DNA from: a virus
IMG/VR virus record: IMGVR_UViG_3300021138_000164
Location: 1 to 24,553 of that record
Length of the DNA: 24,553 nt
Strand: one strand, 5' to 3'
The notes under the pieces were generated by a model. That model did not search any database. It saw only the letters and a list, made by a program, of their open reading frames with translations, and was not told the origin of the DNA. Shown in pieces: positions 3,634 to 18,177 of the stretch. How positions within the stretch are numbered: position 1 is the first letter of the stretch; each line of letters opens with the position of its first letter. The position numbers and the translations under genes were made by a program.

Positions 3634-3637
3634 TCGG

Positions 3638-4234
3638 ATGAGCATGTTCACAGATAGCACACAATGGATACAAGGGCATGTCTTGATACGGGATGCCAAT
3701 ACAGGCGAAGTCCTAGTTGATAAGCGCAATGCTATTAACTATGAGAATTTCTCTATCAGTTTAGCTCAAACTATTGCCAATCGTCCTCAGAGCTGGATAC
3801 AAGAAATGTGTTTTGGCAACGGCGGTGCTAAAGTCAGCGAGATAGGTACGATAACATACCTACCACCTAACGTAACAGGTCAAACGGCAGAACTTTATAA
3901 TCAAACTTATTATAAAGTGGTAGATGATCAAAGTCCTCTAGATCTCAATCCTGCGGAGAATTACATCAGCACTGCTCATATAGATGGTACTACATATACT
4001 GATGTGATAGTCACGTGCACATTGGATCTCGGGGAACCATCTGGTCAAGATGCATTTGATACAGCTACTAATCTAAATGGTGCATATGTATTCAATGAGT
4101 TGGGTCTTAACGCTTATAGTGTGAACGGACCTAATACCGGTAGGTTATTGACACATGTTATTTTCAGTCCGGTACAGAAGAGTCTGAATCGTCAGATACA
4201 GATAGTATACACCATTCGGATACAGACAGTGTGA
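3638..4234 (+). CDS. Phage virion structural protein (198 aa)
   Basis: The frame is open back to an ATG at 3578, but the natural start is ATG 3638. It has GAGG at 3624-3627 upstream, and the protein then begins MSMFTDSTQW. The N-terminal part carries GHVLIRDANTGEVLVDKRNA followed by YENFS, and the C-terminal part has GRLLTHVIFSP and a basic KSLNRQIQIVYTIRI strand. The middle is rich in Asn, Thr and Tyr, with a GNGG turn and GEPSGQDAFDTA. I recognise this as a family seen in the structural clusters of aquatic T4-like phages, usually annotated only as a structural or hypothetical protein. No enzyme motif or transmembrane segment is seen. It lies between fibre genes and is probably late-expressed from the motif at 3487. 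Confidence 0.75.
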   Translation: MSMFTDSTQWIQGHVLIRDANTGEVLVDKRNAINYENFSISLAQTIANRPQSWIQEMCFGNGGAKVSEIGTITYLPPNVTGQTAELYNQTYYKVVDDQSPLDLNPAENYISTAHIDGTTYTDVIVTCTLDLGEPSGQDAFDTATNLNGAYVFNELGLNAYSVNGPNTGRLLTHVIFSPVQKSLNRQIQIVYTIRIQTV

Positions 4235-4241
4235 TGGGAAA

Positions 4242-4248
4242 CTAAATA
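4242..4248 (+). promoter_or_regulatory. Candidate T4-like late promoter, CTAAATA
   Basis: CTAAATA sits in the 41-base gap before the next fibre gene. Initiation about 7 bases downstream (near 4255) would leave a roughly 20-base leader containing the AGGTGA ribosome binding site at 4265. This spacing fits a dedicated late promoter for the gene starting at 4276. Confidence 0.55.
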
Positions 4249-4264
4249 TGAGATTAATCATAGC

Positions 4265-4270
4265 AGGTGA
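4265..4270 (+). promoter_or_regulatory. Ribosome binding site AGGTGA that sets the start at 4276
   Basis: AGGTGA lies 5 bases before ATG 4276. An in-frame GTG at 4267 overlaps this same element and would have no binding site of its own. The ATG is therefore preferred. Confidence 0.6.
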
Positions 4271-4275
4271 ACGAT

Positions 4276-5187
4276 ATGACGACTAACATCTATGAATTCA
4301 ATGGTTCGCTATTGGTCAGTGTACCAGATGGTGTATTGAATAGCACAGCATCCCCGTTACAGCTGCCAGGTAAGGGTTACACCAACTACGGTGCGCCTGT
4401 GCTACAAGACATACTTTGGACCATGACAAATTTTGCTGGATCAGTCGCACCGACGCCTCTGTTACAGGGTGTGCTATGGTATAATACCGGAGCAAATCAA
4501 TTACAGGTTTACACTGGGTCAGCATGGTCTACTGTGCTTAAGGACAATCAAAATAATCTACCAGTAACTACGCTTACCTACGATATTGGTTCAAGTTCTT
4601 TGAAGTGGAACAACATATATGCCAATACCGTCAATGCTAACACGATTTCAGCGACAACGATAACAGGTCCTACTAACCTGTTCTATACGACCCAAACCAA
4701 TCTTCCAACGGTAAACAACACATACAACTTGGGCAGCTCAAGCTTTACATTTAACACAGTGTACGCTACCACGTTCAATGGTACTGCAACACAGGCTCAA
4801 TACGCCGACGTGGCAGAAAGATATGCTGCTGATGATGAGATGGAAGTTGGCGATGTTGTAACATTGGGCGGCTCAGCTGAGATAACCAAGACCACTGAAG
4901 ACTGCGATACTTTTGTGTTTGGTGTGATATCAGATAAACCAGCACTGCAGATGAACAGCAAAGCTGGTACTGATGCAACACATCCATATGTTGCATTGAT
5001 AGGTCGTACACCATGTAAAGTTATAGGACCAGTTGGCAAAGGTTGCAGACTGGTATCAAGCGATACCCCGGGTGTGGCTAGAGCAGCAGACAGCGGTGAA
5101 AATCCGCTATGCATCATAGGTCGAGCGCTTGCAGATAAGACCACAACCGATATTGGTTTAGTAGAGATAGCGATAGGAAGAGCCTAA
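4276..5187 (+). CDS. Tail-fibre protein with C-terminal AERY/'MNSKAG' domain
   Basis: This is a 303-residue protein. Near residues 60-85 it has the G-x-L-W-Y-N-T ... VYTGSAW motif that is very common at the N terminus of phage tail-fibre proteins. Next come Asn/Thr-rich repeats of the type 'YDIGSSSLKWNNIYA' and 'YNLGSSSFTFNTVYA', which look like two copies of a beta-strand repeat. From about residue 175 a globular C-terminal domain begins with YADVAERYAADDEMEVGDVV and contains FGVISDKPALQMNSKAG and IGRTPCKVIGPV. I recognise this domain from the ends of many phage fibre and structural proteins. Role: distal fibre or host-contact component. An in-frame GTG at 4267 is the only alternative start nearby. 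Confidence 0.8.
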   Translation: MTTNIYEFNGSLLVSVPDGVLNSTASPLQLPGKGYTNYGAPVLQDILWTMTNFAGSVAPTPLLQGVLWYNTGANQLQVYTGSAWSTVLKDNQNNLPVTTLTYDIGSSSLKWNNIYANTVNANTISATTITGPTNLFYTTQTNLPTVNNTYNLGSSSFTFNTVYATTFNGTATQAQYADVAERYAADDEMEVGDVVTLGGSAEITKTTEDCDTFVFGVISDKPALQMNSKAGTDATHPYVALIGRTPCKVIGPVGKGCRLVSSDTPGVARAADSGENPLCIIGRALADKTTTDIGLVEIAIGRA

Positions 5188-5188
5188 T

Positions 5189-6163
5189 ATGACTTACAGT
5201 GTAGGCGGTAGCATACAGGCATCTGACTATAATGGGTTTGTAGGTACTACCGCTGTGAATGTGGCCTATACCTCAAGTGTTGCGGCGACCAATAAGATTG
5301 CTGCGCTCATGGGTGTTGGCTACGGTGATCGAGGCTATGGTCAAACAGGGATCACGCTGGCAAGTGTAGCAGCCACAGACATTGTTACTGCTGCGCAGTG
5401 GAACAATCTTCAATCTGCGATGAGCGTGATGAACACCCATCAAGGGTCAGGTTTAACCCTACAACCCACAGTGTCCGCAGGCGGAACGATTCTAGCAGAG
5501 AACGGCACGCTTAGTAGGCCCAACATCTCAACTTTGATATCTTCATTGGATTCAAACAGGCTGACTGCATCTGTAACAGATATGCAGGTTACTCTTGCTC
5601 TCACTAGCAGCCAAACCACGCCTTGGACTCATATCATTAAGCATGTGTTTACTGTAACGTTTGGTGGCACAAACAATCCTGATTATGCGAGATGGTTCTT
5701 TAATAGCGGCGGCCAGGTAAGATTTTCCGGAGCAAATACAGGCGGTACTACAACTGCATCGCAGGCATGGGCGCACTTGCTGCGTACAATGGGAACTATC
5801 AGCTTTGGGGCATATAGCACTACCTATACTGGTTCTGGCGGTACTGTTAACAACATTGGTTATTATAATCTCACTACCTCACCAACAGTGATATTCACTC
5901 ATACTGGTGCAGGCGGGACATATTATCCGCACTACAGTGGTATACTTTATTCTATAGCTATACAGACCAATGCTACAGGCACTGCTAATGGCAGCAATGG
6001 CTATCAGCTTACTTGTACGGTTACGTTCAATGATTCGGGTGCGACCTACGCTTACGGGTCTGTTAATGGCACAACAACCAGTACCATTAACTACTACAAG
6101 GCGTCAAATTCCGGATCGTTGTCTATAACAGCGCCGACGTTCACCACAACCACGCCTTTGTAA
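5189..6163 (+). CDS. Tail-fibre-like virion structural protein (324 aa)
   Basis: The start ATG lies one base after the previous stop codon, with AGGAAGAG about 7 bases upstream, so it is tightly coupled to the preceding fibre gene. The N-terminal 80 residues contain Gly-rich GYGDRGYGQT and VTAAQWNNLQ followed by HQGSG. This arrangement resembles assembly or attachment regions of marine phage fibre proteins. The rest is a long Ser/Thr/Gly/Asn-rich beta-type region with many aromatic residues and almost no charged residues, as in receptor-binding or shaft domains. No catalytic motif, signal peptide or transmembrane helix is seen. Structural assignment rests on composition and neighbours rather than a specific domain match. 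Confidence 0.7.
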   Translation: MTYSVGGSIQASDYNGFVGTTAVNVAYTSSVAATNKIAALMGVGYGDRGYGQTGITLASVAATDIVTAAQWNNLQSAMSVMNTHQGSGLTLQPTVSAGGTILAENGTLSRPNISTLISSLDSNRLTASVTDMQVTLALTSSQTTPWTHIIKHVFTVTFGGTNNPDYARWFFNSGGQVRFSGANTGGTTTASQAWAHLLRTMGTISFGAYSTTYTGSGGTVNNIGYYNLTTSPTVIFTHTGAGGTYYPHYSGILYSIAIQTNATGTANGSNGYQLTCTVTFNDSGATYAYGSVNGTTTSTINYYKASNSGSLSITAPTFTTTTPL

Positions 6164-6222: not shown

Positions 6223-6579
6223 ATGGACGAAAGATTACAGAAAGCTCTAGACTTTTCCAAATATCGCATCGCTCTTTTCAATCGCAAAGAAGATCTCAAG
6301 ATCAAGGTCAACAACATGTTGATCCATGCTCACAATGGGGGCATCTTCAAAGCTTCGCAGGAATTGATCTCATTTGTTAAGCTGCTGATAGATGCAGGCA
6401 AGACCACAGTAGTCTTGATCGATGTCAACGGCAATCCTATCCAAATACTGGATACACAGGTGTTCTTTGACGATATCCTAAGCAAATATTTCGAAGCTAC
6501 AAATTATTATCACGTAGAATATACTAAGATTCGCAGTGCTAGGTCAGTTAATAGCATCTACGAGTTTGTAAATGACTGA
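6223..6579 (+). CDS. Conserved phage protein of unknown function (118 aa)
   Basis: The start ATG has GAGGT 4 bases upstream. The protein is mixed alpha/beta. It starts MDERLQKALDFSKYRI, has a helical middle (FKASQELISFVKLLIDAG) and a C-terminal part with VVLIDVNGNPIQI and FFDDILSKYFEA. I recall similar small proteins beside tail-fibre genes in aquatic myophages, without known function. It is the first gene of a long coupled operon and overlaps the glycosyltransferase-like gene behind it by 8 bases. No signal peptide, membrane helix or enzyme motif is visible. Confidence 0.7.
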   Translation: MDERLQKALDFSKYRIALFNRKEDLKIKVNNMLIHAHNGGIFKASQELISFVKLLIDAGKTTVVLIDVNGNPIQILDTQVFFDDILSKYFEATNYYHVEYTKIRSARSVNSIYEFVND

Positions 6580-7480
6580 ATATCCTGACGGATTTGCATT
6601 GCCTCGCGGATATGTCATGTTTGCGCATAATAATCCTAGCATCGACTACGGTACTCTTGCTCTCTGTAATGCACTTTTGATAAAGAAAAATCTCAAAGAA
6701 CATGCTGTGGCCCTGATAACTGACTCTGGCACTATTGGGTGGCTTGAGCAGCAATACACCGACGAGATAATACGTTTAGCATTTGATCGCATCATCATCG
6801 ATGAACCCAAAGATAGCGAAGCTGGATCGCGACGATATCATGATACCAGATACAGCAATTTCGTTGATTCTTACAAGAACACAAATCGCCCCAATGTGTT
6901 TGACATAAGCCCATTTGAAGAAACGATAATGATCGATAGTGATTATCTGATGCTAGATAACACCATGGATATGGTCTGGGGTAACATGGAAGATTTCATG
7001 TGCAATCGCAAGACTGCTGATCTAGATCACAAGATAAACAATTTTGGATTTGGTAACAGATTTAATGACATGAGCATACCGTTGTATTGGGCAACAGCTG
7101 TGTATTTCCGCAAGACAGAAAAAAGCAAACTGATATTTCAGATGATGAATTTTGTCAAAGAAAACTATGCCTATTATCAATATCTGTATCAATTTTCACA
7201 CAGCGGATATTTTCGCAACGATTATGCACTAAGCATCGCATTGCACCTGTTGAACAATCTCATGGAATACGGCAGTGTTAAATCTCTGCCTATTGAGCAG
7301 ATATTATTCAGCTTGGAAGAAGATGAGATGCATGCATTCAAAGATGGGTCCTGTGTTATCACTACCGAATCCAAACAGGGCGATTTCCATCTGCACACAG
7401 TATCAAGAAATGTGCATATGATGAACAAGCGTGCCATATTACGACATTCTACAGAGATCATAACACATGCAATCAGCTGA
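6572..7480 (+). CDS. GT-A-like glycosyltransferase (DxD protein, family A, copy 1)
   Basis: This 302-residue protein opens with GYVMFAHNN followed by IDYGTLALCNALLIKK, a beta-alpha start typical of nucleotide-diphospho-sugar transferases. At residues 118-127 a hydrophobic strand ends in IDSDYLMLD, giving a D122-S-D124 motif in the place expected for the metal- and sugar-nucleotide-binding DxD. Lengths of 250-320 residues are usual for such GT8-like enzymes. The gene overlaps its upstream neighbour by 8 bases and its downstream neighbour by 14. The next gene shares the same architecture (GFFTLAQNN ... DY ... ALALSL ... LDADMLFF), so the two are diverged duplicates. Donor and acceptor cannot be told. 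Fold and broad function are inferred; no signal peptide, so cytoplasmic. Confidence 0.65.
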   Translation: MTEYPDGFALPRGYVMFAHNNPSIDYGTLALCNALLIKKNLKEHAVALITDSGTIGWLEQQYTDEIIRLAFDRIIIDEPKDSEAGSRRYHDTRYSNFVDSYKNTNRPNVFDISPFEETIMIDSDYLMLDNTMDMVWGNMEDFMCNRKTADLDHKINNFGFGNRFNDMSIPLYWATAVYFRKTEKSKLIFQMMNFVKENYAYYQYLYQFSHSGYFRNDYALSIALHLLNNLMEYGSVKSLPIEQILFSLEEDEMHAFKDGSCVITTESKQGDFHLHTVSRNVHMMNKRAILRHSTEIITHAIS

Positions 7481-8342
7481 GATCAACAAGCGCCCTCGGG
7501 GATTTTTCACGTTAGCTCAGAATAATTCTGATACTGATTATCTTCGAATCGCATATGCACTTGCACTTAGCCTCAAGGCTAGCCAGATTTCGGTGCCATA
7601 TCTTACAGTTGGTATAACTCCGGGTACAGTGGTGCCAGAAAAATATATAGAAGCATTTGATAACATCATAGAAATACCCTGGGGTGACCATGCAGCCGAC
7701 AGTGAATGGAAACTAGAAAACGAGTGGAAATCCATCTACATGAGCCCGTATGATGAAACCATCAAGCTAGATGCTGACATGCTGTTCTTCAATGATATAG
7801 GATTATGGTGGGATACGCTGGCCGACAAGGACTTTGCTATCTGTAACCGTGTGCTAGACTACAGAGCTCATCAGGTAGAGAGCGATTACTACAGAAAGAC
7901 ATTCACGGATAACAGGTTACCAAACGTGTATACTGCGTTCATGTATTTCAAGAAAACTCCGGTGAGCACAGAGATCTTTGATATGGCCAAGTTTGTGTAT
8001 TACAACTGGCAACGCTTCTTTGAACTCATGCTAGTACCTGAGAACAGACCCACCTATGTGAGCACTGATTTGGTATTTGCTATAGTTTTGAAGCTGTTAG
8101 ATATTGATCAAGATTATTATACAGTATCGCAGCTGCCTACGTTTACTCACATGAAAACTCAATTACAGAGCTGGGGTCAAGGAAATCTGGACGAAGATTG
8201 GACTAGGCATATGAATAACTTCTTCAATCCACAGTTAGAATGCAAGATAGGTAACTATCTCCAGTTCTTTCCATTACACTATCATATAAAGAGTTTCTTA
8301 ACCGACGAGATCATAGGCTATTATGAACGATCAATTGCTTGA
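7467..8342 (+). CDS. GT-A-like glycosyltransferase (DxD protein, family A, copy 2)
   Basis: This 291-residue paralogue of the preceding protein has RGFFTLAQNN near residue 11 and an alanine-rich helix (AYALALSLKAS). A strand at about residues 98-107 carries KLDADMLFF, giving D102-A-D104 as the probable metal-binding DxD. The pattern 'SPYDETIKLDADM' aligns with 'SPFEETIMIDSDY' of its neighbour. The C-terminal half is rich in aromatic residues (YYNWQRFFELM, QFFPLHYHIKSF), which may bind the acceptor. It overlaps the upstream gene by 14 bases and the downstream gene by 20, which implies coupled translation. Glycosyltransferase assignment is by fold pattern and DxD only; the sugar is unknown. Confidence 0.65.
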   Translation: MQSAEINKRPRGFFTLAQNNSDTDYLRIAYALALSLKASQISVPYLTVGITPGTVVPEKYIEAFDNIIEIPWGDHAADSEWKLENEWKSIYMSPYDETIKLDADMLFFNDIGLWWDTLADKDFAICNRVLDYRAHQVESDYYRKTFTDNRLPNVYTAFMYFKKTPVSTEIFDMAKFVYYNWQRFFELMLVPENRPTYVSTDLVFAIVLKLLDIDQDYYTVSQLPTFTHMKTQLQSWGQGNLDEDWTRHMNNFFNPQLECKIGNYLQFFPLHYHIKSFLTDEIIGYYERSIA

Positions 8343-8865
8343 TAAACGAGCCTGGGCGTGGTACAGCCTAGATACTCTTGAGCTGATGCATGTCGGTTTT
8401 CACGAGGAATCTGATCATGGATTGGGATTGGGTATCATCGAGATAGATTATGGTACTGCATTAGATATTGCTTCGGGAGTTAGCAGATTCTTTGAATACG
8501 AGATACGCAAAGAAGGCGATAATGCAACATTCCATTATATCAATAATATCAGCCAGCCGCCCAAGCAGTTCTGGACTTTAATCAATCCCGAAACCACAGA
8601 ATTCAATGCGAGATTCAACACCACTGCGAGCAAAAGCAGTCCTGTGATCGTGAAAGAAAGATCGCCAACTGGATTTGTGGTTGACATAATACACAAAGCA
8701 ACTAATGTAGTTTTCTATATCACGATGAAAAACGATCCAAATTATCTGATCACGAAGATAGATCTGTACCCGTATGCAGAGCTCGCAGAATCGGTAACTG
8801 ATATAGATATACCGTTGGATATTCGAGACGATTACAGCATATATGTGAGGTACGATGCAGCGTGA
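8323..8865 (+). CDS. Unknown phage protein (180 aa) inside the glycosyltransferase operon
   Basis: It starts inside the end of the preceding gene (20-base overlap) and ends inside the next. The N-terminal region has WAWYSLDTLELMHVGFHEESDHGLGLGIIEIDYG (written here as a run of short motifs: WAWYSLDTLEL, then HVGFHEESD, then GIIEIDYG). The remainder alternates beta strands and polar turns (FWTLINPETTEF, TGFVVDIIHKATNVVFYITM) and ends in SIYVRYDAA. It looks like a small all-beta domain, possibly carbohydrate-binding or a virion accessory protein, but no family motif is recognised. Its only functional clue is its fixed place between two glycosyltransferase families. Confidence 0.65.
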   Translation: MNDQLLDKRAWAWYSLDTLELMHVGFHEESDHGLGLGIIEIDYGTALDIASGVSRFFEYEIRKEGDNATFHYINNISQPPKQFWTLINPETTEFNARFNTTASKSSPVIVKERSPTGFVVDIIHKATNVVFYITMKNDPNYLITKIDLYPYAELAESVTDIDIPLDIRDDYSIYVRYDAA

Positions 8866-9760
8866 TATGAGTGAATTTGATTTTGTATTTCTCAGCTATG
8901 ATGAGCCAAATGCAGAAGCTCTCTATGCCGAGTTAGTAAACATCGTACCGTGGGCAAAACGAGTACACGGTGTTAAAGGTTTTGACAGTGCCCATCGAGC
9001 CTGTGCTGATGTAGCAGACACTGATTTCTTTGTGACAGTAGATGGCGATAACAGCATAGACGAGCAGTTCCTCAACGTGAAGCTAAACATCAGCGAGGGA
9101 CAGGACGATCATGCATGGACCTGGGCAGGCCGCAATCACATTAATGGTTTGGTATATGGCAACGGCGGACTCAAGCTATGGAGCAAGCAGTTTGTGCGCA
9201 GCATGAACAGCCATGAGAACAGCAACAACGATGCTGCTAAAGTGGATTTTTGTTGGAGCCACAAATATCACGAAGTGTTTGGTACATATAGCACCAGCAT
9301 GATTAATGGCAGCCCTTACCAAGCATTCCGCAGTGGGTATCGCGAGGGTGTAAAGATGAGCCTGGAGAATGGGCTGCGAGTATCGCCATCTGAGTTCTCT
9401 CGCAAGATTTGGATTTACAATCTACACAAGCTGTTGATCTGGTGCAGCGTCGGAGCAGACGTGGATAATGGTATATGGAGCATCTACGGTGCTAGACAAG
9501 GTGTGTTTGACTGCAATCTAACCGAATCTGATCACACCATGATCCGAGACTACGATTGGTTTGATCAACGCTGGCTCAGCGTTAAAGATCTTGATCCGAT
9601 CGCAGAATCGTTAGCACTTGGTGATAAGCTGCGACAGGGTCTAAACATAGAGATAGCTGAACTTGACGCTAACAACAGCAAGTTTTTCAAACGCATCTAT
9701 ATCAACCCACCCAGACCTATGATCAGTTACGATAACATCAAACATCTTTCAGCAATGTAA
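8855..9760 (+). CDS. Glycosyltransferase-like protein (family B, copy 1)
   Basis: This 301-residue protein starts at ATG 8855, or possibly ATG 8867, which would give MSEFDFVFLSYDE and match its paralogues better. It shows the family-B signature in order: FVFLSYDEPNAE; WAKRVHGVKGFDSAH; a strand ending TVDGDNSID with D63-G-D65 as the DxD; the NxINGLVYGNGGLKLW motif; and YQAFRSGYREGVKM followed by SVGADVDNG and YGARQG. I recognise this family from aquatic T4-like phages, where it is annotated as glycosyltransferase. The DGD motif and beta-alpha start suit a GT-A fold. It is closest in layout to the gene at 11905, sharing the C-terminal YINPPR end. Substrate unknown. Confidence 0.68.
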   Translation: MQRDMSEFDFVFLSYDEPNAEALYAELVNIVPWAKRVHGVKGFDSAHRACADVADTDFFVTVDGDNSIDEQFLNVKLNISEGQDDHAWTWAGRNHINGLVYGNGGLKLWSKQFVRSMNSHENSNNDAAKVDFCWSHKYHEVFGTYSTSMINGSPYQAFRSGYREGVKMSLENGLRVSPSEFSRKIWIYNLHKLLIWCSVGADVDNGIWSIYGARQGVFDCNLTESDHTMIRDYDWFDQRWLSVKDLDPIAESLALGDKLRQGLNIEIAELDANNSKFFKRIYINPPRPMISYDNIKHLSAM

Positions 9761-11226
9761 TGTATGATATTATTTTTGTCAGCAAGCACGACCAAAACAC
9801 TGCAGCATACGATAGGTTTAAAGAAAACTATCCAACTGCAAAATGGTTGCCTAACTCACCAACATTAAGTGCTGCTATAGCAGCAGCGCAGCCTATGTCT
9901 ATGACTAGCATGTATTGGTTGATCACAGATGATGTGACCCTTGATCCAACACTTGACCTAACTTGGAAACCTAACGATTGGGATAGACAATATCCGCATG
10001 CATGGTTAACTGTTGACCGCCACGGTAACGAAGTTGAAGAATTTGCCGGAGTATACCTCATACCAACGAGATACAAGTTGACTGTCACTGATAAGCAGAC
10101 CGGTCGTGTATCATCGTGCAAATACGTAAATGATCATCAGCAAATATTGCGTCCGTATGACGTAGTTCATATGTCATGCAACGATGTGTCGGATATTAGC
10201 CATGCCTGTGACAGAGCACGGTTGATGTGTAACACTGAGATGTATTGGATAATCATGGACGATGTTGAACTGAGATCGGACATGGATCTGAATTGGCGTC
10301 CTCCTGTCTGGGATCGAGGGTATGTGCACGTATGGCAATCTTTGAACCAAAACGGCAACATATTAGATACTCATACAGGCGTGTATCTTGTTCCGGGAAA
10401 CTATCAACCGGATGGTCAAGAGCTGCAACAAGGCAGCCTAAGCTACATTAAACCAATTGACATTGTGGCATCAATTGCAAAACCCTATGATATATTCTTT
10501 ATCAGCTACCATGAAAAGAATGCAGACCGCGACTTTAAACGTTTGCGAGATAGATTTCCTCGCGTTCAGCATGTGAGTGGGATCAAAGGAATCCATAATG
10601 CACACACGCACTGCGCTGAATTAAGCAAGACTCCCATGTTCTGGACTGTGGATGCAGATACACTAGTTGATGCTAGCTTTGTCTTTGATTACCGTCCACC
10701 TGATTATGACAAGCAATATCTACATCTATGGCACAGTCGAAATCCTGTTAACGGTCTAAGCTATGGTTGGGGAGCTGTTAAGCTATGGCCAACTACATTG
10801 GTGCGCGAGTTTAGGTCAAATTGGCTGGACTTTACTACCACTGTGGGTAACATCAAGATCATACCTGATATCATAGCTACATCGCAGTTTAATTGTGATC
10901 GTATGAGCACCTGGCGCAGTGCATTCCGCGAATCTGTCAAGCTATGTCACAATGTAGCCAATGGTGATCATATAGAGAGCACAGAACGTCTCATGGTATG
11001 GCTTACAGTGGCCAATGAAGTTGAATGGGCCCAAGACAGCCTGCAAGGAGCTAGAGCTGGAGTTGAATTCTATCTTGAAACTCGTTTGATTGATAGGTTA
11101 GACAAGCTCAAGAAGATAAACGATTTTGACTGGCTGATAAAGCAGTTTGATAATCGAAAGAAAATACCAAATGCTCCAGATAGATCTGAACTTTTGACAC
11201 GATTGAAAGAACTATCTGATGTATGA
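9760..11226 (+). CDS. Three-module glycosyltransferase-like protein (family B fusion)
   Basis: The start ATG shares one base with the previous stop. The 488 residues contain three tandem family-B modules. Module 1 (about 1-110) begins MYDIIFVSKHD and has YWLITDDVTLD at 52-62. Module 2 (about 131-230) begins RPYDVVHMSCND and has YWIIMDDVELR at 162-172. Module 3 (about 241-488) is full length, beginning KPYDIFFISYHEKNAD, with FWTVDADTLVD at 294-304 and then NPVNGLSYGWGAVKLW, TWRSAFRESVKL and ARAGVEF. Each is followed by a W-x-P/YRPP ... WDRxY/YDKQY ... W segment. In modules 1 and 2 the first Asp of DxD is missing (TDD, MDD) and the C-terminal half is lost, so only module 3 looks catalytically complete. 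The short modules may bind substrate or organise a complex. Confidence 0.7.
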   Translation: MYDIIFVSKHDQNTAAYDRFKENYPTAKWLPNSPTLSAAIAAAQPMSMTSMYWLITDDVTLDPTLDLTWKPNDWDRQYPHAWLTVDRHGNEVEEFAGVYLIPTRYKLTVTDKQTGRVSSCKYVNDHQQILRPYDVVHMSCNDVSDISHACDRARLMCNTEMYWIIMDDVELRSDMDLNWRPPVWDRGYVHVWQSLNQNGNILDTHTGVYLVPGNYQPDGQELQQGSLSYIKPIDIVASIAKPYDIFFISYHEKNADRDFKRLRDRFPRVQHVSGIKGIHNAHTHCAELSKTPMFWTVDADTLVDASFVFDYRPPDYDKQYLHLWHSRNPVNGLSYGWGAVKLWPTTLVREFRSNWLDFTTTVGNIKIIPDIIATSQFNCDRMSTWRSAFRESVKLCHNVANGDHIESTERLMVWLTVANEVEWAQDSLQGARAGVEFYLETRLIDRLDKLKKINDFDWLIKQFDNRKKIPNAPDRSELLTRLKELSDV

Positions 11227-11908
11227 TATAGTGTTTATTAGCTATGAAGAATCTAATGCCGAGGATAATTGGCAGAGGTTGATATCTAGATTTCCTGCTG
11301 CTAAACGCCTGCATGGCGTACATGGTATACACCAGGCTCATATCGTAGCTGCACACATTGTAGACACAGTGATGTTCTACGTTGTTGACGGTGATGCAGC
11401 TATAGAGCAGGATTTTGCATTTGATTACCAAGTGCCTGATCACCAATTAGATCACGTGCATGTGTTTAGAGCTAGAAATCCGATCAATGATCTAGTATAT
11501 GGATACGGCGCTGTCAAACTATTGCCCACGTCTGATGTAAGAGATTTAGCCGACAGAGATTTCAAACCTGACATGACCAGCAGCATCAACCGCAAATACA
11601 AGATCATACATCAGCTGAGCAATGTTACTGCATTTAATACAGATACCTATAACACTTGGCGCAGTGCTTTCAGAGAATGTGCCAAGCTGGCCAGCGGTGT
11701 CATAGACGGACAAGTTGACACTGAGACGCTGCAGAGATTAGACACATGGTGCTCAGTTGGATCTAGTCGCAACTATGGATATTGGTGTTTAGAAGGCGCA
11801 CAAGCTGGCCGAAAGTTTGGCTTAGCCAGCGGAGGTACCGATCAGTTGATGAAAATAAACGACTGGACGTGGTTACGAGACCAATATCAACAGAGCGGGT
11901 TGGCATGA
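11219..11908 (+). CDS. Glycosyltransferase-like protein (family B, compact copy)
   Basis: This 229-residue protein starts 8 bases inside the previous gene and ends in an ATGA overlap with the next. It is a single compact family-B module: MYDIVFISYEESNAE, AAKRLHGVHGIHQAH, then FYVVDGDAAIE with D57-G-D59, then RNPINDLVYGYGAVKLLP, then NTWRSAFRECAKL and LEGAQAG at the end. Compared with the copies at 8855 and 11905 it lacks the long C-terminal extension ending YINPPR. It resembles the form of this family that I recall most often in aquatic phages. Predicted cytoplasmic sugar transferase; donor and acceptor unknown. Confidence 0.7.
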   Translation: MYDIVFISYEESNAEDNWQRLISRFPAAKRLHGVHGIHQAHIVAAHIVDTVMFYVVDGDAAIEQDFAFDYQVPDHQLDHVHVFRARNPINDLVYGYGAVKLLPTSDVRDLADRDFKPDMTSSINRKYKIIHQLSNVTAFNTDTYNTWRSAFRECAKLASGVIDGQVDTETLQRLDTWCSVGSSRNYGYWCLEGAQAGRKFGLASGGTDQLMKINDWTWLRDQYQQSGLA

Positions 11909-12774
11909 GCATACATTGGCCTAGAGATCTAGAAACCTTCTATATCAGCTATGACGAACCTAATCGAGAAGAAAATTGGGCTAGAATCAGCCTGATGCTG
12001 CCTCATGCTAAGCGCATGCATGGAGTTAAAGGTTTCGAAGCAGCACATAAAGCCTGTGCTAATGCTAGCACCACAGATCGGTTCATGACCATTGACGGCG
12101 ATAACTGGTTATTGGATGAAGGTTTTGATACAGCTTTAGATGACACAGATATAGAAGATGTGATTTTCAGTTTCAAGAGCAAGAATGCAATCAACGGCCT
12201 TGAATACGGAAACGGCGGCCTTAAGTGCTGGCCCAAAGATGTGCTACTAGCCAGCAATACGCATGAAAGCAGCAATAGCACAGATTTCTGTTGGGCGCTG
12301 CGATACTATCAGGTTGATGTACTAGGTAGTATCAGTGTCAACAATGCATCTGCATATCAAGCCTGGCGAGCCGGTTATCGCGAAGGTGTGAAGATGAGCT
12401 ACGTTGGAGGCAACCCAATGAGCAATCCTCGCAGGGATATGGAATCAATATGGTATGGTAACAGGAGCAAGCTCAATATATGGATGAGTGTTGGTCGTGA
12501 TACTGAGAATGGTAGCTGGGCAATGCTGGGAGCTAGGCAAGGGTTCTACGAACTTTATTCTGGACTGATAGACAATCTTGTTATCAATGATTATGCTTGG
12601 TTTGTAGATCATTGGGCCAGTGTGCAGCACTGGGATGTAGCTACTGCTCTAGATTCTTATCGCGTAGCTCTCAAAGATCAGTTTAACCTATACGTACCAG
12701 AATTAGATAGTGCTGACAGTGCATGGTTTAAGACAACATACATAAACCCACCTCGCAAAGGATTGATGTCATGA
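11905..12774 (+). CDS. Glycosyltransferase-like protein (family B, copy 4)
   Basis: The frame is open back to 11782, but the start is taken as ATG 11905, which forms ATGA with the previous stop and places the family motif TFYISYDEPNRE near residue 11. The 289-residue protein has HAKRMHGVKGFEAAH, then FMTIDGDNWLL with D64-G-D66, then KNAINGLEYGNGGLKCW, AYQAWRAGYREGVKM, SVGRDTENG and LGARQGF, and it ends YINPPRKG. This order and the long C-terminal extension match the gene at 8855, so these two are the closest pair. It is followed by a 4-base ATGA overlap with the methyltransferase-like gene. Confidence 0.7.
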   Translation: MSIHWPRDLETFYISYDEPNREENWARISLMLPHAKRMHGVKGFEAAHKACANASTTDRFMTIDGDNWLLDEGFDTALDDTDIEDVIFSFKSKNAINGLEYGNGGLKCWPKDVLLASNTHESSNSTDFCWALRYYQVDVLGSISVNNASAYQAWRAGYREGVKMSYVGGNPMSNPRRDMESIWYGNRSKLNIWMSVGRDTENGSWAMLGARQGFYELYSGLIDNLVINDYAWFVDHWASVQHWDVATALDSYRVALKDQFNLYVPELDSADSAWFKTTYINPPRKGLMS

Positions 12775-13481
12775 CATCGGTAGAGCAGCATCTGCGCAAC
12801 GTTCATAGAATGCTAGACATAGTACCAGATTCCAAGGTTTTCTTAGAACGATATATTGCACTGGCTGCACACGATAATGCAGCACACATCAGCATCCAGG
12901 ATGCCTTTAGCAGTGGTCAGATCGACAGCAAGCTATGGTTGATAGACGTGATCAGTTCTCTTGAGCTTAAGTGTGGCAATGCTTGGACGCTGTGCGGATG
13001 GATCGGAACACTGGGCTATCTCATGCTGCTAAAGAAAGCAGAGCTTGGACTCACAAGCGTGCGCAGCTTTGACATTGATCAATATTGTGCACCAATGGCT
13101 GATACATTAAACAGGCTATCTGTCAAGGACGGTTGGCAGTTCAAAGCGTCAACGCTAGACGTGAACAGTATAAGCTATGATAATTTTGCATATGATACGC
13201 TAAAGTATGATGGTACCGCGCAGCGGGTTACTGATACCGCTGATACCATCATTAACACCAGTTGTGATCACATGGGCAGTGACCGCACTTGGTGGGACAG
13301 CATACCGTCTGATCGATTGATCATATTGCAGAACAACGATTGGTTTGAAAATGATCAACACAATAACAGCGTGAACGATTTGGCTGAGTTTGCAAAGATG
13401 TATCCTATGCGAGAATTGCTGTTTTCGGGTGAACTCGACTGTACACTCTATAAGAGATTCATGCTGATAGGGCGTAAATGA
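12771..13481 (+). CDS. SAM-dependent methyltransferase-like protein (class I Rossmann)
   Basis: This 236-residue protein has a helical N-terminal region of about 65 residues. It is followed by a Rossmann-type stretch: NAWTLCGWIGTLGYLML (G76, G79, G82 as the glycine loop), then SVRSFDID with D101 at the end of strand 2, where class I methyltransferases bind the SAM ribose. After a gap comes ADTIINTSCDHM at 157-168, which resembles the motif IV strand (N/D-x-x-C/P-x-H/Y). The later segment RLIILQNNDWFEND and the FSGELDCTLYKRFMLIG end fit the remaining strands. It overlaps both neighbours by ATGA. The target is unknown; a methylated sugar or peptide would suit the context. Confidence 0.6.
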   Translation: MTSVEQHLRNVHRMLDIVPDSKVFLERYIALAAHDNAAHISIQDAFSSGQIDSKLWLIDVISSLELKCGNAWTLCGWIGTLGYLMLLKKAELGLTSVRSFDIDQYCAPMADTLNRLSVKDGWQFKASTLDVNSISYDNFAYDTLKYDGTAQRVTDTADTIINTSCDHMGSDRTWWDSIPSDRLIILQNNDWFENDQHNNSVNDLAEFAKMYPMRELLFSGELDCTLYKRFMLIGRK

Positions 13482-13723
13482 CTACTGATATAGAGTTGCT
13501 GTCACCAAGGCAGCTGCAGAAAGAAGCTGCTCGTGTGCTCAGTGCAGGAGACGGCTTTGGTAACCACGACCTGGTGAAGTTTAATAAATCAGCACACCAT
13601 GATAGCCATGCGTGGTACAAGGCAGTTATCGCATGGTATGTTGCGCAACACGGTGACCTTCCCAGCAAGATTGGACCAGGGTTATCTGTAAAACTATTAT
13701 TGGACACGGCTGATGATATATGA
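13478..13723 (+). CDS. Unknown small protein (81 aa) coupled to a radical SAM gene
   Basis: The start forms ATGA with the methyltransferase-like gene's stop, and the end overlaps the radical SAM gene by 11 bases. The N-terminal third is helical (SPRQLQKEAARVLSA), the middle has HDLVKFNKSAHHDSHAWYKAVIAWYVAQHG, given here as HDLVKFNKS, HHDSHAW and AVIAWYVAQHG, and the end is acidic (LLLDTADDI). It has four histidines and three tryptophan/tyrosine pairs near the centre but no cysteine. Position directly before a radical SAM enzyme raises the question of a peptide substrate or partner protein, but no leader/core layout is evident. Function unknown. Confidence 0.6.
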   Translation: MTTDIELLSPRQLQKEAARVLSAGDGFGNHDLVKFNKSAHHDSHAWYKAVIAWYVAQHGDLPSKIGPGLSVKLLLDTADDI

Positions 13724-14813
13724 TTACACAGATATTACCACAGTGCATCTCGAAATCACAGCCAAGTGCAATGCCAGCTGTCCGCAATGCGGCCGTAACA
13801 AGTTTGGCGGCCCAGATAACGAGTTTTTGCCACAGACAGAATTAAGTCTAGGCGACATGCAGCGTATCATGCCAGAACAGTTCGTACGTCAATTGAACAG
13901 GCTGTACATGTGTGGCAACTACGGTGATCCGATAGCAGCTAACGACACTCTGGAAGTGTACGAATGGCTGCGAGAGGTAAACCCTGACATCAAGTTAGGC
14001 ATGCACACTAACGCAAGTGCTCGAACACCTGCTTGGTGGGCACGATTGGGCAAGTTATTGAGCAAAAAAGGCGATTATGCTAAGTTTGGACTTGATGGGT
14101 TAGCTGATACCAATCACATCTATCGTCGCGGTACTAACTGGAACAAGATAATGGAGAACGTGCAAGCGTTCATAGATGCTGGCGGCATTGCACAGTGGGA
14201 ATTCATTGTTTTCAAACATAACGAACATCAAGTTGATGCTGCTCGTGCGCTCAGCGAACAGATGGGATTTGCGCAGTTCCGCACCAAGAAGACTGGGCGC
14301 TTCTTCAGCAATACCAAACTGCAGGGCAAGGACAGCCAAGAAGTTTGGAGCTGCAACGGCGAGGTTGAATATCACATAGAGAAACCAGAAAACTCGGCAT
14401 ATCATAATGATAGTTTGATCAACGAACAGTCTTTGATCGAACAATTTGGCAGCATGCAAGACTATGTTGATCAGACCTGTGTTAAGTGCAAAGTTGCTGA
14501 GGACAAGAGCTTGTACATATCAGCTGAGGGGCTGGCTTTCCCTTGCTGCTGGACAGCCAACCAGCTGTATATATGGTATTGGCCCTATAAACAAAGCGAG
14601 ATGTGGTCGCTGCTGGATCACGATATCAACAACGTTAGTGCGCTTGTGAATCCATTAGAATCCATAATAAAAGGACCTTATTTCAATAAGATAGCTAACA
14701 GCTGGTCAAAGCCAAGCATCGCTGACGGCAAACTGCGAGTATGTGCAAAAACCTGTGGTTCTGGCTTTGATCAGTTTGCTAGCCAGTTTCGCGAAACCGT
14801 AAATAAAGCATGA
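13713..14813 (+). CDS. Radical SAM protein with SPASM-like C-terminal cysteines
   Basis: This 366-residue protein has the radical SAM cluster motif at the extreme N terminus, EITAKCNASCPQC, with C19-x3-C23-x2-C26 ligating a [4Fe-4S] that cleaves SAM. YMCGNYGDP at 65-73 resembles the GGE-type SAM-binding strand, and GMHTNAS follows. C-terminal cysteines at 256, 259, 278, 279, 344 and 348 (CVKC, PCCW, CAKTC) are placed like the auxiliary iron-sulfur sites of SPASM or twitch proteins, which often modify peptides or sugars. The gene overlaps the 81-aa gene by 11 bases and the next radical SAM gene by ATGA. The radical SAM class is secure; the reaction is not known. Confidence 0.85.
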   Translation: MIYDYTDITTVHLEITAKCNASCPQCGRNKFGGPDNEFLPQTELSLGDMQRIMPEQFVRQLNRLYMCGNYGDPIAANDTLEVYEWLREVNPDIKLGMHTNASARTPAWWARLGKLLSKKGDYAKFGLDGLADTNHIYRRGTNWNKIMENVQAFIDAGGIAQWEFIVFKHNEHQVDAARALSEQMGFAQFRTKKTGRFFSNTKLQGKDSQEVWSCNGEVEYHIEKPENSAYHNDSLINEQSLIEQFGSMQDYVDQTCVKCKVAEDKSLYISAEGLAFPCCWTANQLYIWYWPYKQSEMWSLLDHDINNVSALVNPLESIIKGPYFNKIANSWSKPSIADGKLRVCAKTCGSGFDQFASQFRETVNKA

Positions 14814-16204
14814 CAGAATTACCTAGCTCAACTTTCTGCGCCCTGCCCTGGGTACACCTCAGCAGCCGTCCAGACGGTGCTATGCGAGTCTGCTGCACTG
14901 CTAATGCCAGCAGCGTCCAAGATCCGGACAGCACCAAGAAAAGTGGCGGTGGCCAGATTGGCGTGCTGCGCACAGCCGATGGCACGCCTGCTAACCTCAA
15001 CAACAGCACGCTGATGGACGCATGGAACAATGATTACATGCGCAACGTTCGCAAGATGATGCTGCGAGGAGAACAGCCTCCTAGCTGTCTCAAATGTTAC
15101 AAAGAAGAAGCAGTGGGAGTGCAGAGCAAGCGCAACTGGGAAACTGCTTACTGGGTAGGACAGTTGGGCCTAGATGATATCATAGGTGATACCACAGAAG
15201 ACGGCGCCGTCAGCCCGAGAATACGCTATCTTGATCTCCGATTAGGCAGCAAGTGCCAGCTAGCCTGCGTGATGTGCAGCCCGCACGACAGCAGTGGTTG
15301 GATCAAAGAATGGACCGACATACATCCAACTATCAAGAATGAACGCTTGCGCGAGAGCTGGAATTGGGCAGACAAGGGCAAGCAACACGGTGCCAGCTAC
15401 AATTGGCACATGAACAATCCAGAGTTTTGGTCACAGCTCTATGACCAAATACCTCATATGAAGCAGCTGTATTTCGCCGGCGGTGAAAGCACCATCATTG
15501 AAGAACATTACACGCTGTTGGAAGAGGTCATACGCAGAGGTTATGCTAAGAACATAGAGCTGCGCTATAATAGCAATGCAGTTGAACTACCTCAGCGGCT
15601 GTTTGATATCTGGGCACAGTTCCGTGAAGTTAAATTCCACTTTAGCATAGACAGTTTCGGTACCAAGAATGATTACATACGCTATCCTAGCCAATGGGAT
15701 CAGCTGTTAGCTAACATGCACCTGCTGGATGCTACTCCCGATCACGTCACTGTGACTACAGCGGTTACAGTGATGGCACTGAACATCTATTACATACCAG
15801 ACATGATCAAGTGGAAGCTAAGCCAAAACTTCGAAAAATTCAACACATGGCCCAGTGGTGCAGGCATGATCAACTGGCACCTAGCCTATTGGCCGCCGCA
15901 GCTCAACGTCAAGGTGCTGCCCAAGTGGGCCAAGCAAATGGTACGTGCTAAATTTGAAGAATTCTTCGTTTGGTTAGAAGATAACTGGGAATCCTGCACT
16001 GGATTAACACCCGATATCACTAAAGATACGGTGTTGACAGCTGGGTATGGCATCAAACGCTTGCGCGGATTGTTAGATTTCATGGACAAAGAAGACTGGA
16101 GCGAACGCATGCCAGAGCTCCGGGAATGGATAAGATTGCTCGATGAGAATCGTGGATTAAACTTTAGAGATACGTTCCCCGAAATGGCCGCGTTAATAGA
16201 TTAA
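14810..16204 (+). CDS. Radical SAM protein with N-terminal SPASM/twitch-like domain
   Basis: In this 464-residue protein the domain order is reversed from the usual one. The N terminus has FCALPWVHLSSRPDG and then MRVCCTA (C10, C28, C29), with SCLKC (C93, C96) about 65 residues later, an arrangement like a twitch/SPASM auxiliary cluster site. The radical SAM motif follows at C149-x3-C153-x2-C156 (GSKCQLACVMC). FAGGESTII near residue 222 is the GGE SAM-binding motif. Proteins of this layout are known from aquatic phages as 'twitch domain-containing radical SAM protein', function unknown. The long C-terminal half has no further recognisable domain. It closes the coupled operon; its stop is followed by the next transcription unit. 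Confidence 0.88.
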   Translation: MTELPSSTFCALPWVHLSSRPDGAMRVCCTANASSVQDPDSTKKSGGGQIGVLRTADGTPANLNNSTLMDAWNNDYMRNVRKMMLRGEQPPSCLKCYKEEAVGVQSKRNWETAYWVGQLGLDDIIGDTTEDGAVSPRIRYLDLRLGSKCQLACVMCSPHDSSGWIKEWTDIHPTIKNERLRESWNWADKGKQHGASYNWHMNNPEFWSQLYDQIPHMKQLYFAGGESTIIEEHYTLLEEVIRRGYAKNIELRYNSNAVELPQRLFDIWAQFREVKFHFSIDSFGTKNDYIRYPSQWDQLLANMHLLDATPDHVTVTTAVTVMALNIYYIPDMIKWKLSQNFEKFNTWPSGAGMINWHLAYWPPQLNVKVLPKWAKQMVRAKFEEFFVWLEDNWESCTGLTPDITKDTVLTAGYGIKRLRGLLDFMDKEDWSERMPELREWIRLLDENRGLNFRDTFPEMAALID

Positions 16205-16240
16205 AGGAAAATAGTAAATGCATTTTGGAGTCCCTGGTAC

Positions 16241-16248
16241 CATAAATA
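16241..16248 (+). promoter_or_regulatory. T4-like late promoter, CATAAATA
   Basis: CATAAATA differs from the T4 late octamer TATAAATA by one base. Initiation near 16255 would leave a short leader with AGGGAT at 16265-16270, 7 bases before ATG 16278. It marks the switch from the long glycan/radical SAM operon to the ThyX unit. Confidence 0.55.
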
Positions 16249-16277
16249 GTAGTGTTAGTTCAACAGGGATCACCGTG

Positions 16278-16649
16278 ATGGCACCTTCCCCGAAAAAGCT
16301 CGTAGACAAGGCATCCGATGATGCCTGGGACGAGATATTCAATAGTTTAACCATAGAGAATGAACCACCAATCCGCTATATCAAGAATGTGATCATCCAA
16401 ACCAAGGATGGATCAGTGATAAAGGTCAGCGGTAAGAATTTTGCTGAGATAATCGAACAGGAGCGAGAGCTAAGTCCCGAAGACAGTGAGATACGCAGCT
16501 GCAAGATGAGCATTAACTTTCCAAGGCTACGTGCTGATGTTGATGCATGGGCTGCTGATCTATTAACAACGTTAAACACAGCTGATAGATTCAAGGTTTC
16601 GGTTAAAGCCAAACGCAAACCAGCAGCTAAAAAATCCAAGCAAGATTGA
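16278..16649 (+). CDS. Conserved phage protein of unknown function (123 aa), basic C terminus
   Basis: Two starts are possible. ATG 16218 has AAAGGA 9 bases upstream and would give 143 residues. ATG 16278 has AGGGAT 7 bases upstream and lies just downstream of the CATAAATA late promoter. I prefer 16278, because transcripts from that promoter would lack the first start and the recognisable family sequence begins there (KKLVDKASDDAWDEIFNSL). The core ENEPPIRYIKN, KDGSVIKVSGKNFAEII and SCKMSINFPRLRADV is familiar from T4-like aquatic phages, where it has no known function. The last 15 residues are strongly basic (KAKRKPAAKKSK), which suggests nucleic-acid contact. Confidence 0.7.
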   Translation: MAPSPKKLVDKASDDAWDEIFNSLTIENEPPIRYIKNVIIQTKDGSVIKVSGKNFAEIIEQERELSPEDSEIRSCKMSINFPRLRADVDAWAADLLTTLNTADRFKVSVKAKRKPAAKKSKQD

Positions 16650-16680
16650 CTCTGCTGCCTGCTAACGGTCATACTGTTGC

Positions 16681-17337
16681 ATGACAGTAAAACTCATAGC
16701 CATATCAAAACCCACCATTGACGAGTGTGCCACAGCAGAAGAATTGGTGGCATATTGTGCCAGGGTATCAAACCCAGCCAATCAAAACAACCACGGTACC
16801 AGCGCAAAGCTAATACGATACCTCATCAACAACGCACATTGGTCTCCTCTAGAGATGGTCCACATGACCATGGAGATCAACACCACCAGGGACATAGCAC
16901 GGCAGATACTGCGGCATCGCAGCTTCAGCTTCCAAGAGTTCAGCCAGCGCTATGCTGATCCAACCAAGTCACTGGGATTTGTGACCAGAGAAGCACGCCT
17001 GCAGGATGCCAAGAACCGTCAGAACAGCATTGAGATCAATGATGCCGAACTACAACAGTTGTGGACTGGCATGCAGGCTATGGCCATAGAAGATGCCAAG
17101 CGTCAGTATGCCAAGGCCATCAACATGGGTATTGCCAAGGAACAGGCCCGTGCTCTGCTGCCAGAAGGGCTCACTGAAAGCAGGATATACATGGCAGGTA
17201 ACCTTCGCAGCTGGGTACATTACTGCGAACTACGCCGTGCTAACGGCACACAGAAGGAGCATCGCGAGATAGCAGATGCATGCTGGGACATAGTTACACA
17301 ACAATTTCCCATGCTAGGAGAACACGATGAAACCTAA
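16681..17337 (+). CDS. thyX: FAD-dependent thymidylate synthase ThyX
   Basis: This 218-residue protein, normal length for ThyX, carries the defining motif RHRxxSxxxxSxR as R78-H79-R80 ... S83 ... S88-Q-R90-Y91 (LRHRSFSFQEFSQRY). HWSPLEMVHMTMEI before it and AGNLRSWVHYCELRRANGTQ near the C terminus are also typical of the family. ThyX makes dTMP from dUMP using methylenetetrahydrofolate, with FAD and NADPH, as a homotetramer, and phages carry it to supply DNA synthesis. No clear ribosome binding site precedes ATG 16681 and the 31-base gap holds nothing else obvious, so translation may depend on the upstream gene. Its end overlaps the P-loop kinase gene by 11 bases. Confidence 0.95.
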   Translation: MTVKLIAISKPTIDECATAEELVAYCARVSNPANQNNHGTSAKLIRYLINNAHWSPLEMVHMTMEINTTRDIARQILRHRSFSFQEFSQRYADPTKSLGFVTREARLQDAKNRQNSIEINDAELQQLWTGMQAMAIEDAKRQYAKAINMGIAKEQARALLPEGLTESRIYMAGNLRSWVHYCELRRANGTQKEHREIADACWDIVTQQFPMLGEHDET

Positions 17338-17809
17338 CAAGAAGATACTGATCATGGGGCTGCCGGGCGCCGGCAAGACCATGTTGGCCAGAGCCTTGAG
17401 AACCAAGCTCAAGGCTGTGCATTGGAATGCAGATGATGTGCGTGCGCAGATCAACAAGGATCTGGGATTCACTGAAGCTGATAGGATAGAACAGGCCCGC
17501 CGCATGGGATGGCTATGCGACAAGGCCGTGGAAGCAGGACATTGGACAATAGCAGATTTTATCTGTCCAACTCCTGCTACAAGGGCAGCGTTTGGACCAG
17601 CTACTGTGATCTGGGTAGATACGATAAAGGAAGGTCGTTTTGCAGATACCAACAAGATGTTTGTGCCACCTGAACCCGGACAGTATGCCTACCGCGTGGA
17701 CACACAGGACGCAGACTTCTGGGCCAAGTACATCTGGGAACAGCTTGACCTTGATGATAAGCCCAGTTGGATCAAGGCAATGCTATATGGATGGAGGAAC
17801 GGCGGATGA
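17327..17809 (+). CDS. P-loop kinase resembling adenylylsulfate (APS) kinase
   Basis: ATG 17327 has AGGAG 6 bases upstream, inside the end of thyX. The 160-residue protein has a Walker A loop GLPGAGKT at residues 11-18. It then has HWNADDVR, where APS kinases have DGDNVR, followed by NKDLGFTEADRIEQARRMG and AGHWTIADFICPTPATR, which closely follow the APS kinase pattern (KDLGF..EDR.E..RR..; FISP...R). APS kinase converts APS and ATP to PAPS, the sulfate donor, but phage relatives with this weaker match may phosphorylate other small molecules. It is joined by an ATGA overlap to a nucleotidyltransferase, which suggests a two-step activation of one substrate. Kinase fold secure, substrate not. 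Confidence 0.78.
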   Translation: MKPNKKILIMGLPGAGKTMLARALRTKLKAVHWNADDVRAQINKDLGFTEADRIEQARRMGWLCDKAVEAGHWTIADFICPTPATRAAFGPATVIWVDTIKEGRFADTNKMFVPPEPGQYAYRVDTQDADFWAKYIWEQLDLDDKPSWIKAMLYGWRNGG

Positions 17810-18177
17810 GAAAGAAGTGGGAAAATAACAAGCCAACTACGCAACTTTTGGGCCGTTGGCAACCTTGGCACGATGGTCATTTTGCGCTGTTTGAGCGAGC
17901 AGTGGCCAAGACAGGTCAGGTTGCTATCATGGTCAGAGACACGGGTGGCACTGACGATAAGAATCCATTCTACTATGATGTGGTGCGTGACAGGATCATC
18001 ACAGAGCTTGGCAAGAAGGGTTACATGCACGGTGACGAGTATGTGGTCATGCTAGTGCCTAACATCGTTAACGTGACATATGGCCGTGATGTGGGTTATG
18101 TTATCGAGCAAGAAGTTTTTGATGCAGATATACATGCCATATCTGCCACACAGATTCGCAAGGAAATGGGTCTTTAA
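17806..18177 (+). CDS. HxGH nucleotidyltransferase (cytidylyltransferase-like)
   Basis: The start is taken as ATG 17806, which forms ATGA with the kinase gene's stop and has GGAGG at 17793-17797, 8 bases upstream. The frame is open further up but without signals. The 123-residue protein has LLGRWQPWHDGHFALFERA, with H22-D-G-H25 as the nucleotide-binding HxGH, and ISATQIRKE at 112-120, the ISxTxIR signature that closes the active site. This is the small alpha/beta cytidylyltransferase/NMN-adenylyltransferase fold, which transfers NMP to a phosphorylated substrate. With the adjacent kinase it could activate a sugar, alcohol or cofactor. It converges on glutaredoxin, the two stop codons sharing TTAA. 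Confidence 0.82.
   Translation: MRKKWENNKPTTQLLGRWQPWHDGHFALFERAVAKTGQVAIMVRDTGGTDDKNPFYYDVVRDRIITELGKKGYMHGDEYVVMLVPNIVNVTYGRDVGYVIEQEVFDADIHAISATQIRKEMGL

Follow-up and report, generated by a model that had tools for sequence, protein, structure and literature searches.

The stretch of DNA analysed here (hereafter the window) is the entire IMG/VR virus record IMGVR_UViG_3300021138_000164, a genome fragment of 24,553 bases. At positions 6223–16204 it contains a row of twelve genes, g1 to g12, all of them open frames on the + strand, beginning 59 bases past the end of the fibre gene f4. A preliminary description of this sequence had taken the row for a single unit encoding a dedicated glycan pathway with six glycosyltransferases, a class I methyltransferase and two radical S-adenosylmethionine (SAM) enzymes. 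Its statement that consecutive genes overlap by 1–20 bases held at all eleven junctions, with overlaps of 8, 14, 20, 11, 1, 8, 4, 4, 4, 11 and 4 bases when the ATG at 11905, and not the mechanically assigned TTG at 11782, is taken as the start of g8. The location of the row directly downstream of fibre genes was confirmed as well, with f2–f4 lying upstream and PHROG matches supporting f2 and f3. The genes are:

3578..6163, + strand: f2, f3 and f4, structural/tail-fibre genes (PHROG matches, composition, synteny)
6223..6579, + strand: g1, conserved protein of 118 amino acids between the last fibre and the first glycosyltransferase (56–80% identity in relatives)
6572..7480, + strand: g2, putative GT8-like glycosyltransferase with a DxD motif (alignment, glycogenin profile match)
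7467..8342, + strand: g3, putative GT8-like glycosyltransferase, paralogue of g2 (alignment, glycogenin profile match)
8323..8865, + strand: g4, protein of 180 amino acids, fastest-evolving member of the row (25–56% identity in relatives)
8855..9760, + strand: g5, putative GT-A-fold glycosyltransferase, core copy of a family without a name, here called GTB (alignment, predicted structure)
9760..11226, + strand: g6, protein of 488 amino acids with a C-terminal GTB domain (repeated motif, BLAST of domains)
11219..11908, + strand: g7, putative GTB-family glycosyltransferase, first cassette gene (alignment, fusion in relatives)
11905..12774, + strand: g8, GTB-family paralogue of g5 (sequence comparison)
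12771..13481, + strand: g9, predicted class I SAM-dependent methyltransferase (predicted structure, Foldseek)
13478..13723, + strand: g10, conserved protein of 81 amino acids, cassette marker adjoining the g11 type (80 loci)
13713..14813, + strand: g11, radical SAM protein with a C-terminal cysteine-rich extension (PF04055)
14810..16204, + strand: g12, N_Twi_rSAM protein with an N-terminal twitch/SPASM-like domain followed by the radical SAM core (NF033640)
16218..18177, + strand: h1, thyX, an APS-kinase-like and a nucleotidyltransferase-like gene, outside the pathway

Relatives of g5 and g12 were drawn from viral contigs and the window proteins were mapped onto these stretches, which carry L-numbers below. 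The gene set and its order recurred in about 20 relatives, and the freshwater-type relatives kept the complete order. An independent alignment scan of viral contigs with the GTB family returned at least 592 relatives, the best 80 of which were analysed, and a scan with g10 provided another 80 loci; both samples consist of best-scoring loci and are not a census. A core with the order g1-GT8-GT8-(g4)-GTB was present in 77 of the 80 best GTB loci, g1 being found in 72 of these 77 cores. Both recurrences speak against a chance arrangement. Wherever 6 kb of upstream sequence was available (51/51 loci) fibre-type genes preceded the core, in the order f4-g1-GT8-GT8-(g4)-GTB. Among the 49 core loci with at least 5 kb of downstream sequence, 25 had a radical SAM gene within 10 kb and 24 had none; the g10-marked cassette was found in 8 of the 49, partly since stretches end before it. 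At the g10 loci the next gene was of the g11 type in 76 of 80 cases, the contig ending in the other four, and a GTB gene lay upstream in all 72 testable loci. Co-occurrence of radical SAM and glycosyltransferase genes, the neighbourhood check on which the preliminary description had staked its single-pathway idea, was thus not rare. Two relatives, L020 and L022, carry the fibres and g1–g6 and continue directly with h1 and thyX, so that g7–g12 constitutes a separate block. As radical SAM genes can be absent from phages with the core, the row is not one indivisible unit. It consists of two modules: the core, which many uncultured aquatic phages have directly behind their fibres, and a cassette (glycosyltransferase-methyltransferase-g10-radical SAM-radical SAM) that has been added in some of them.

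The two modules are joined by a gene fusion. In L209, L204/L202 and L189 a single open frame of 868–903 codons contains orthologues of g5, g7 and g9 in that order, with identities to the window proteins of 45% (g5), 49–51% (g7) and 38–45% (g9). It follows the GT8 pair where contigs extend upstream, and g10, g11-type and g12-type genes come after it. As the fused frames are 60–75% identical between three divergent contig types, they do not stem from one assembly error, and the fusion therefore ties the core to the cassette and argues for one pathway. A search for fusions between GTB and radical SAM genes yielded none, the only fusions found being of the GTB-GTB-methyltransferase type.

In marine-type contigs (L038–L043) the genes g7-g9-g10-g11-g12 are accompanied by arrays of further g12-like genes. 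The L038 contig has a g1-GT8-GT8-g4-g5 core about 30 kb upstream, behind fibres of its own and ahead of another radical SAM array. Radical SAM matches numbered 22 in one viral contig (117 kb, record G020, L287–L289), 18 in another (87 kb) and 17 in a third (58 kb, G013), and a 216 kb relative has more radical SAM genes beside tail sheath/tube-like genes (L050:14338–17325). The marine cluster also includes an epimerase-family gene, a SIS isomerase, a carbamoyltransferase and a nucleotidyltransferase-sugar isomerase fusion, and a gene resembling nucleosidases of the methylthioadenosine/S-adenosylhomocysteine (MTA/SAH) type lies directly after the phage radical SAM array (L038:20395–20943). These accessory genes fit sugar synthesis and removal of by-products of the radical SAM enzymes and methyltransferases, and the nucleosidase could clear 5'-deoxyadenosine and SAH. 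Among 50,697 phage records, g5, its marine orthologue and g1 had no match in cultured phages and g11 and g12 gave only weak ones, so that no annotated close relative was usable. A tail protein of one relative resembles those of jumbo myophages at 27–32%.

Searches against Pfam and NCBIfam placed none of the putative glycosyltransferase genes over a cut-off, and g9 was likewise without a family match. A profile of g2 and g3 found glycogenin, a GT8 enzyme, weakly (E 0.01); the DxD motif is invariant, and in the g2 family alignment D102/D104, H271 and K275 do not vary. A single family, GTB, unites g5, g7, g8 and the C-terminal region of g6 as paralogues, and here too the DxD (D63/D65) is invariant. 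As profile searches of the Protein Data Bank (PDB) with the GTB and g9 families found nothing, their folds were predicted instead. The g5 model (predicted local distance difference test score, pLDDT, 89.3) has a GT-A-like fold whose best matches (Z 9.5–9.8 over 131–142 residues, 3.5–4.5 Å) were glycosyltransferases, with nucleotidyltransferases of that fold scoring equally; a capsid glycosyltransferase of PBCV-1 was among the best tied matches (Z 9.5–9.6). It is well supported by the predicted fold that g5–g8 are putative GT-A-fold glycosyltransferases. The six glycosyltransferases originally described, two GT8-like and four GTB, are thus putative enzymes that fold and motif support well. In g6, two degenerate repeats of the middle part of GTB precede the GTB domain, and its length varies among relatives. 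Lone GTB-family genes were also seen in Streptomyces, Actinosynnema and Rhodobacteraceae, where they have no radical SAM partners (L255–L257, L261, L232–L237).

The predicted structure of g9 (pLDDT 91.7) gave 264 PDB matches in Foldseek at E ≤ 0.001, those listed being nearly all methyltransferases (NodS, ChlM and others) with a template modelling (TM) score of about 0.5. The model thus agrees with the class I methyltransferase previously proposed; many relatives have two copies. Both radical SAM assignments were upheld too. The g11 protein scored 31.8 bits against PF04055 (cut-off 29.5), and its CxxxCxxC cysteines (C19/C23/C26) are invariant across relatives; its Pfam SPASM score of 13.9 bits fell below the cut-off of 21.5. 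The g12 protein matched the NCBIfam family NF033640 (N_Twi_rSAM) over positions 1–397 of the 398 of the model with 415.1 bits, against a cut-off of 170, and its residues 10–97 matched Pfam SPASM with 25.2 bits (cut-off 21.5). The radical SAM core of g12, at 22.5, remained under the Pfam cut-off, yet C149/C153/C156 are invariant, as are a GGE motif and the twitch cysteines C10/C28/C93/C96. Its profile was nearest to SkfB and also found CGA decarboxylase and the twitch domain of BtrN. Many of the array paralogues are likewise NF033640 members over the cut-off, and the family is here tied to a glycan-type gene set; we know of no reaction that has been assigned to it.

The GTB alignment scan covered 84,980 genomes and also retrieved fibre-bearing contigs that resemble phages binned into metagenome-assembled genomes. 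On chromosome-sized contigs of Bdellovibrionia and Bacteriovoracaceae, GTB, g9-type, g11 and g12 genes were found close together. The bacterial g12 proteins are 53–61% identical to that of the window, and a third radical SAM gene at the Bdellovibrionota loci has a counterpart in the 216 kb phage relative with 61–66% identity. The neighbours of one such locus (L231) are ordinary chromosomal genes (MoxR, S49 peptidase), whereas several GT2 genes surround another (L246). No g10 was found in the Bdellovibrionota loci. Within the class Bdellovibrionia, g12 was detected at E ≤ 1e-100 in 13 of 144 genomes; at E ≤ 1e-80 it was found in none of 398 Pseudomonadota genomes. In a g12 tree rooted with paralogues, obtained by a quick search and with long outgroup branches, all phage sequences grouped together among the bacterial ones (support 97; 96 at the next fork). 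This nesting suggests one bacteria-to-phage transfer, probably from bacteria related to Bdellovibrionota, for which the tree provides moderate evidence. In the g11 tree the window lineage was sister to a group containing Bacteriovoracaceae (97), with an unsure root and very long outgroup branches. A literature search returned no papers on radical SAM glycan loci of Bdellovibrio.

The existence of a dedicated glycan pathway is supported, because its enzymes are co-inherited, g5, g7 and g9 are fused, and the same enzymes lie together in Bdellovibrionota chromosomes; what had to be modified is its unity, as the row is built of two modules and the core also occurs without radical SAM genes. We give about an even chance to the reading that the operon is a cytoplasmic line for glycan assembly and tailoring that acts on a phage product, most likely the tail-fibre proteins encoded upstream. 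In such a scheme a sugar chain would be begun on the acceptor by the GT8-like pair g2 and g3 and lengthened by the GT-A enzymes g5–g8, with g9 methylating it. The radical SAM enzymes g11 and g12 might then alter unreactive sugar carbons by dehydrogenation, epimerisation or deoxygenation, by analogy with the twitch enzyme BtrN and with CGA decarboxylase, which act on sugar-like substrates, leaving an unusual sugar cap that would shield the fibre or change how it binds its receptor. A glycosylation core linked to the fibres would be the basis of the system, and the cassette an optional addition to it. That the glycan is placed on virion fibres is suggested by position, by the lack of membrane parts and by analogy. 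Upstream of the row, f2 matches phrog_11259 (E 1.6e-73) and f3 the PHROG 'tail fiber protein' (E 1.6e-12), while Ser and Thr make up 29% of f4 (5189–6163), with a median of 24% in its relatives against 11–13% in the operon enzymes. Hydropathy analysis of g2–g12 detected no transmembrane segments, which favours a soluble acceptor, and the Ser/Thr-rich fibre f4 would be the most likely one. A high Ser/Thr content is, however, common in fibres on other grounds. Several further points weigh against this scheme: neither g2 nor g3 can be formally assigned to GT8, what GTB matches in structure is a general GT-A/nucleotidyltransferase fold with many tied rows, and the scheme does not account for g1, g4 and g10. 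The acceptor, the sugar and the activities are all things that we infer, and the same enzymes occur in Bdellovibrionota without a phage fibre, so that a different acceptor, or a glycan of the surface, is conceivable.

The enzymes might instead alter a host surface glycan (lipopolysaccharide or capsule) during infection, which would keep released virions from adsorbing again or prevent superinfection; such a role has been proposed for the glycosyltransferases of pelagimyophage host recognition clusters (PMC7029224). It is in keeping with this that Bdellovibrionota carry homologues of the enzymes on their chromosomes, at one locus with several surface-glycan-type GT2 genes around them. However, the twelve genes include no membrane protein, flippase, polymerase or undecaprenyl-phosphate transferase, unlike gtrABC-type seroconversion systems, whose membrane flippase and membrane glycosyltransferase have no counterpart among g2–g12, all of which lack a membrane-type hydrophobic segment. 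The row also stands behind fibre genes at all testable loci, and we regard action on the host glycan as unlikely, if still deserving attention. A rather improbable explanation is that the radical SAM enzymes and the methyltransferase mature a peptide, in the manner of ribosomally synthesised and post-translationally modified peptides, or a small molecule, which the glycosyltransferases then decorate. The closest solved relative of the g12 core, SkfB, is a peptide maturase, and g10 is small, conserved and next to the radical SAM genes; but conservation of g10 extends over most of the protein, which is not the pattern of a leader-core precursor, g10 was not found in the Bdellovibrionota loci, and sugar-type genes accompany the marine array.

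Core (g1–g6) and cassette (g7–g12) could also be independent pathways that merely share a hypervariable fibre region, which would account for the 24 of 49 testable core loci without any radical SAM gene and for L020 and L022, where h1-thyX directly follows the core. The fusion of the core gene g5 with the cassette genes g7 and g9, and the GTB gene upstream of every testable cassette, make this very improbable. We see an even slimmer chance that the genes hypermodify phage DNA with glycosylated or radical-edited bases, ThyX supplying the modified pyrimidine. There are precedents for DNA-modifying glycosyltransferases in viruses (Pyle et al. 2024, in the passage of PMC12619734 that cites it), and thyX does lie downstream in the window, but in many relatives it is on the other strand and it is present also without the cassette. 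PF00303 (thymidylate synthase/hydroxymethylase) was detected in only 3 of 15 relatives' records, all of them incomplete, and the same cassette enzymes reside in bacterial chromosomes.

The twelve-gene row is not a closed transcription unit. Beyond g12, genes on the same strand continue from h1 (16218) through thyX, the APS-kinase-like and the nucleotidyltransferase-like gene up to 18177. A scan for promoters and terminators around g1–g12 revealed no convincing boundary, promoter-like matches equalling those in shuffled sequences, and no T4 late promoter motif was found within the operon. We considered thyX and the kinase-nucleotidyltransferase pair as pathway members and rejected them, since these genes and h1 are kept in phages that lack the cassette. 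The members of this pair overlap by 43 bases (17327–18177), and the pair is conserved in freshwater and marine relatives. Close to a VWA-type gene at the end of the window, a gene for 254 amino acids with NUMOD3 motifs (22508–23272, E 3.8e-16) probably encodes a homing endonuclease. A 90-base tRNA-Lys called by ARAGORN at 19231–19320 (+ strand) is likely false, as it overlaps conserved open frames on the opposite strand.

The earlier remark that no described phage pathway has exactly this gene set has to be narrowed. Pelagimyophage host recognition clusters, which have been read as serving host O-chain modification, combine tail fibres, glycosyltransferases and radical SAM cassettes (Zaragoza-Solas et al. 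2020, PMC7029224), and the window shares with them this gene content, in a hypervariable island of uncultured aquatic myophages with several glycosyltransferases. That cluster lies between VrlC and gp14; the window, a 24.5 kb fragment, was compared with it by gene content. It has been described as non-syntenic, whereas here the gene order is fixed across many contigs; core and cassette can be told apart, g5, g7 and g9 are fused in some relatives, and bacteria have a counterpart. The Campylobacter phages CP220 and CPt10 have 11–12 radical SAM genes (11 in CP220), for which a function in host metabolism was proposed, and such arrays have been called highly unusual since 2010 (PMC2853527). As in our relatives, many radical SAM genes occur in one phage and adjoin genes of the nucleotide-diphospho-sugar transferase fold, but identity to g11 is just 24%, an amidinotransferase takes the place of the GTB/methyltransferase set, and the arrays of the relatives (22 in 117 kb, 17 in 58 kb) are larger. 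Virion glycosylation is known from mycobacteriophages (Freeman et al. 2023, as cited in PMC12619734). The glycan there is on capsid and tail tube. A glycosyltransferase of mycobacteriophage Che8 was a weak fold match of g5. To our knowledge, no radical SAM enzymes take part in mycobacteriophage virion glycosylation. What is added here is the definition of core and cassette with their order, the fusion, the sizes of the arrays, a GT-A family that has no name so far, and the connection with Bdellovibrionota.

It appears possible, at somewhat less than an even chance, that these phages build a protein-linked glycan on their own fibres and edit it with radical SAM enzymes from a cassette common to predatory Bdellovibrionota, and that in some marine relatives the editing has grown to whole arrays, each with at least a dozen radical SAM enzymes, so that added enzymes would diversify the chemistry of the virion surface. 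The enzyme set is small and defined (two glycosyltransferases, a methyltransferase and two or three radical SAM enzymes) and lends itself to expression and assay as a single pathway. A product on fibres would give widespread aquatic phages a new level at which phage and host recognise each other; one on surfaces would link phages with the envelope of predatory bacteria.

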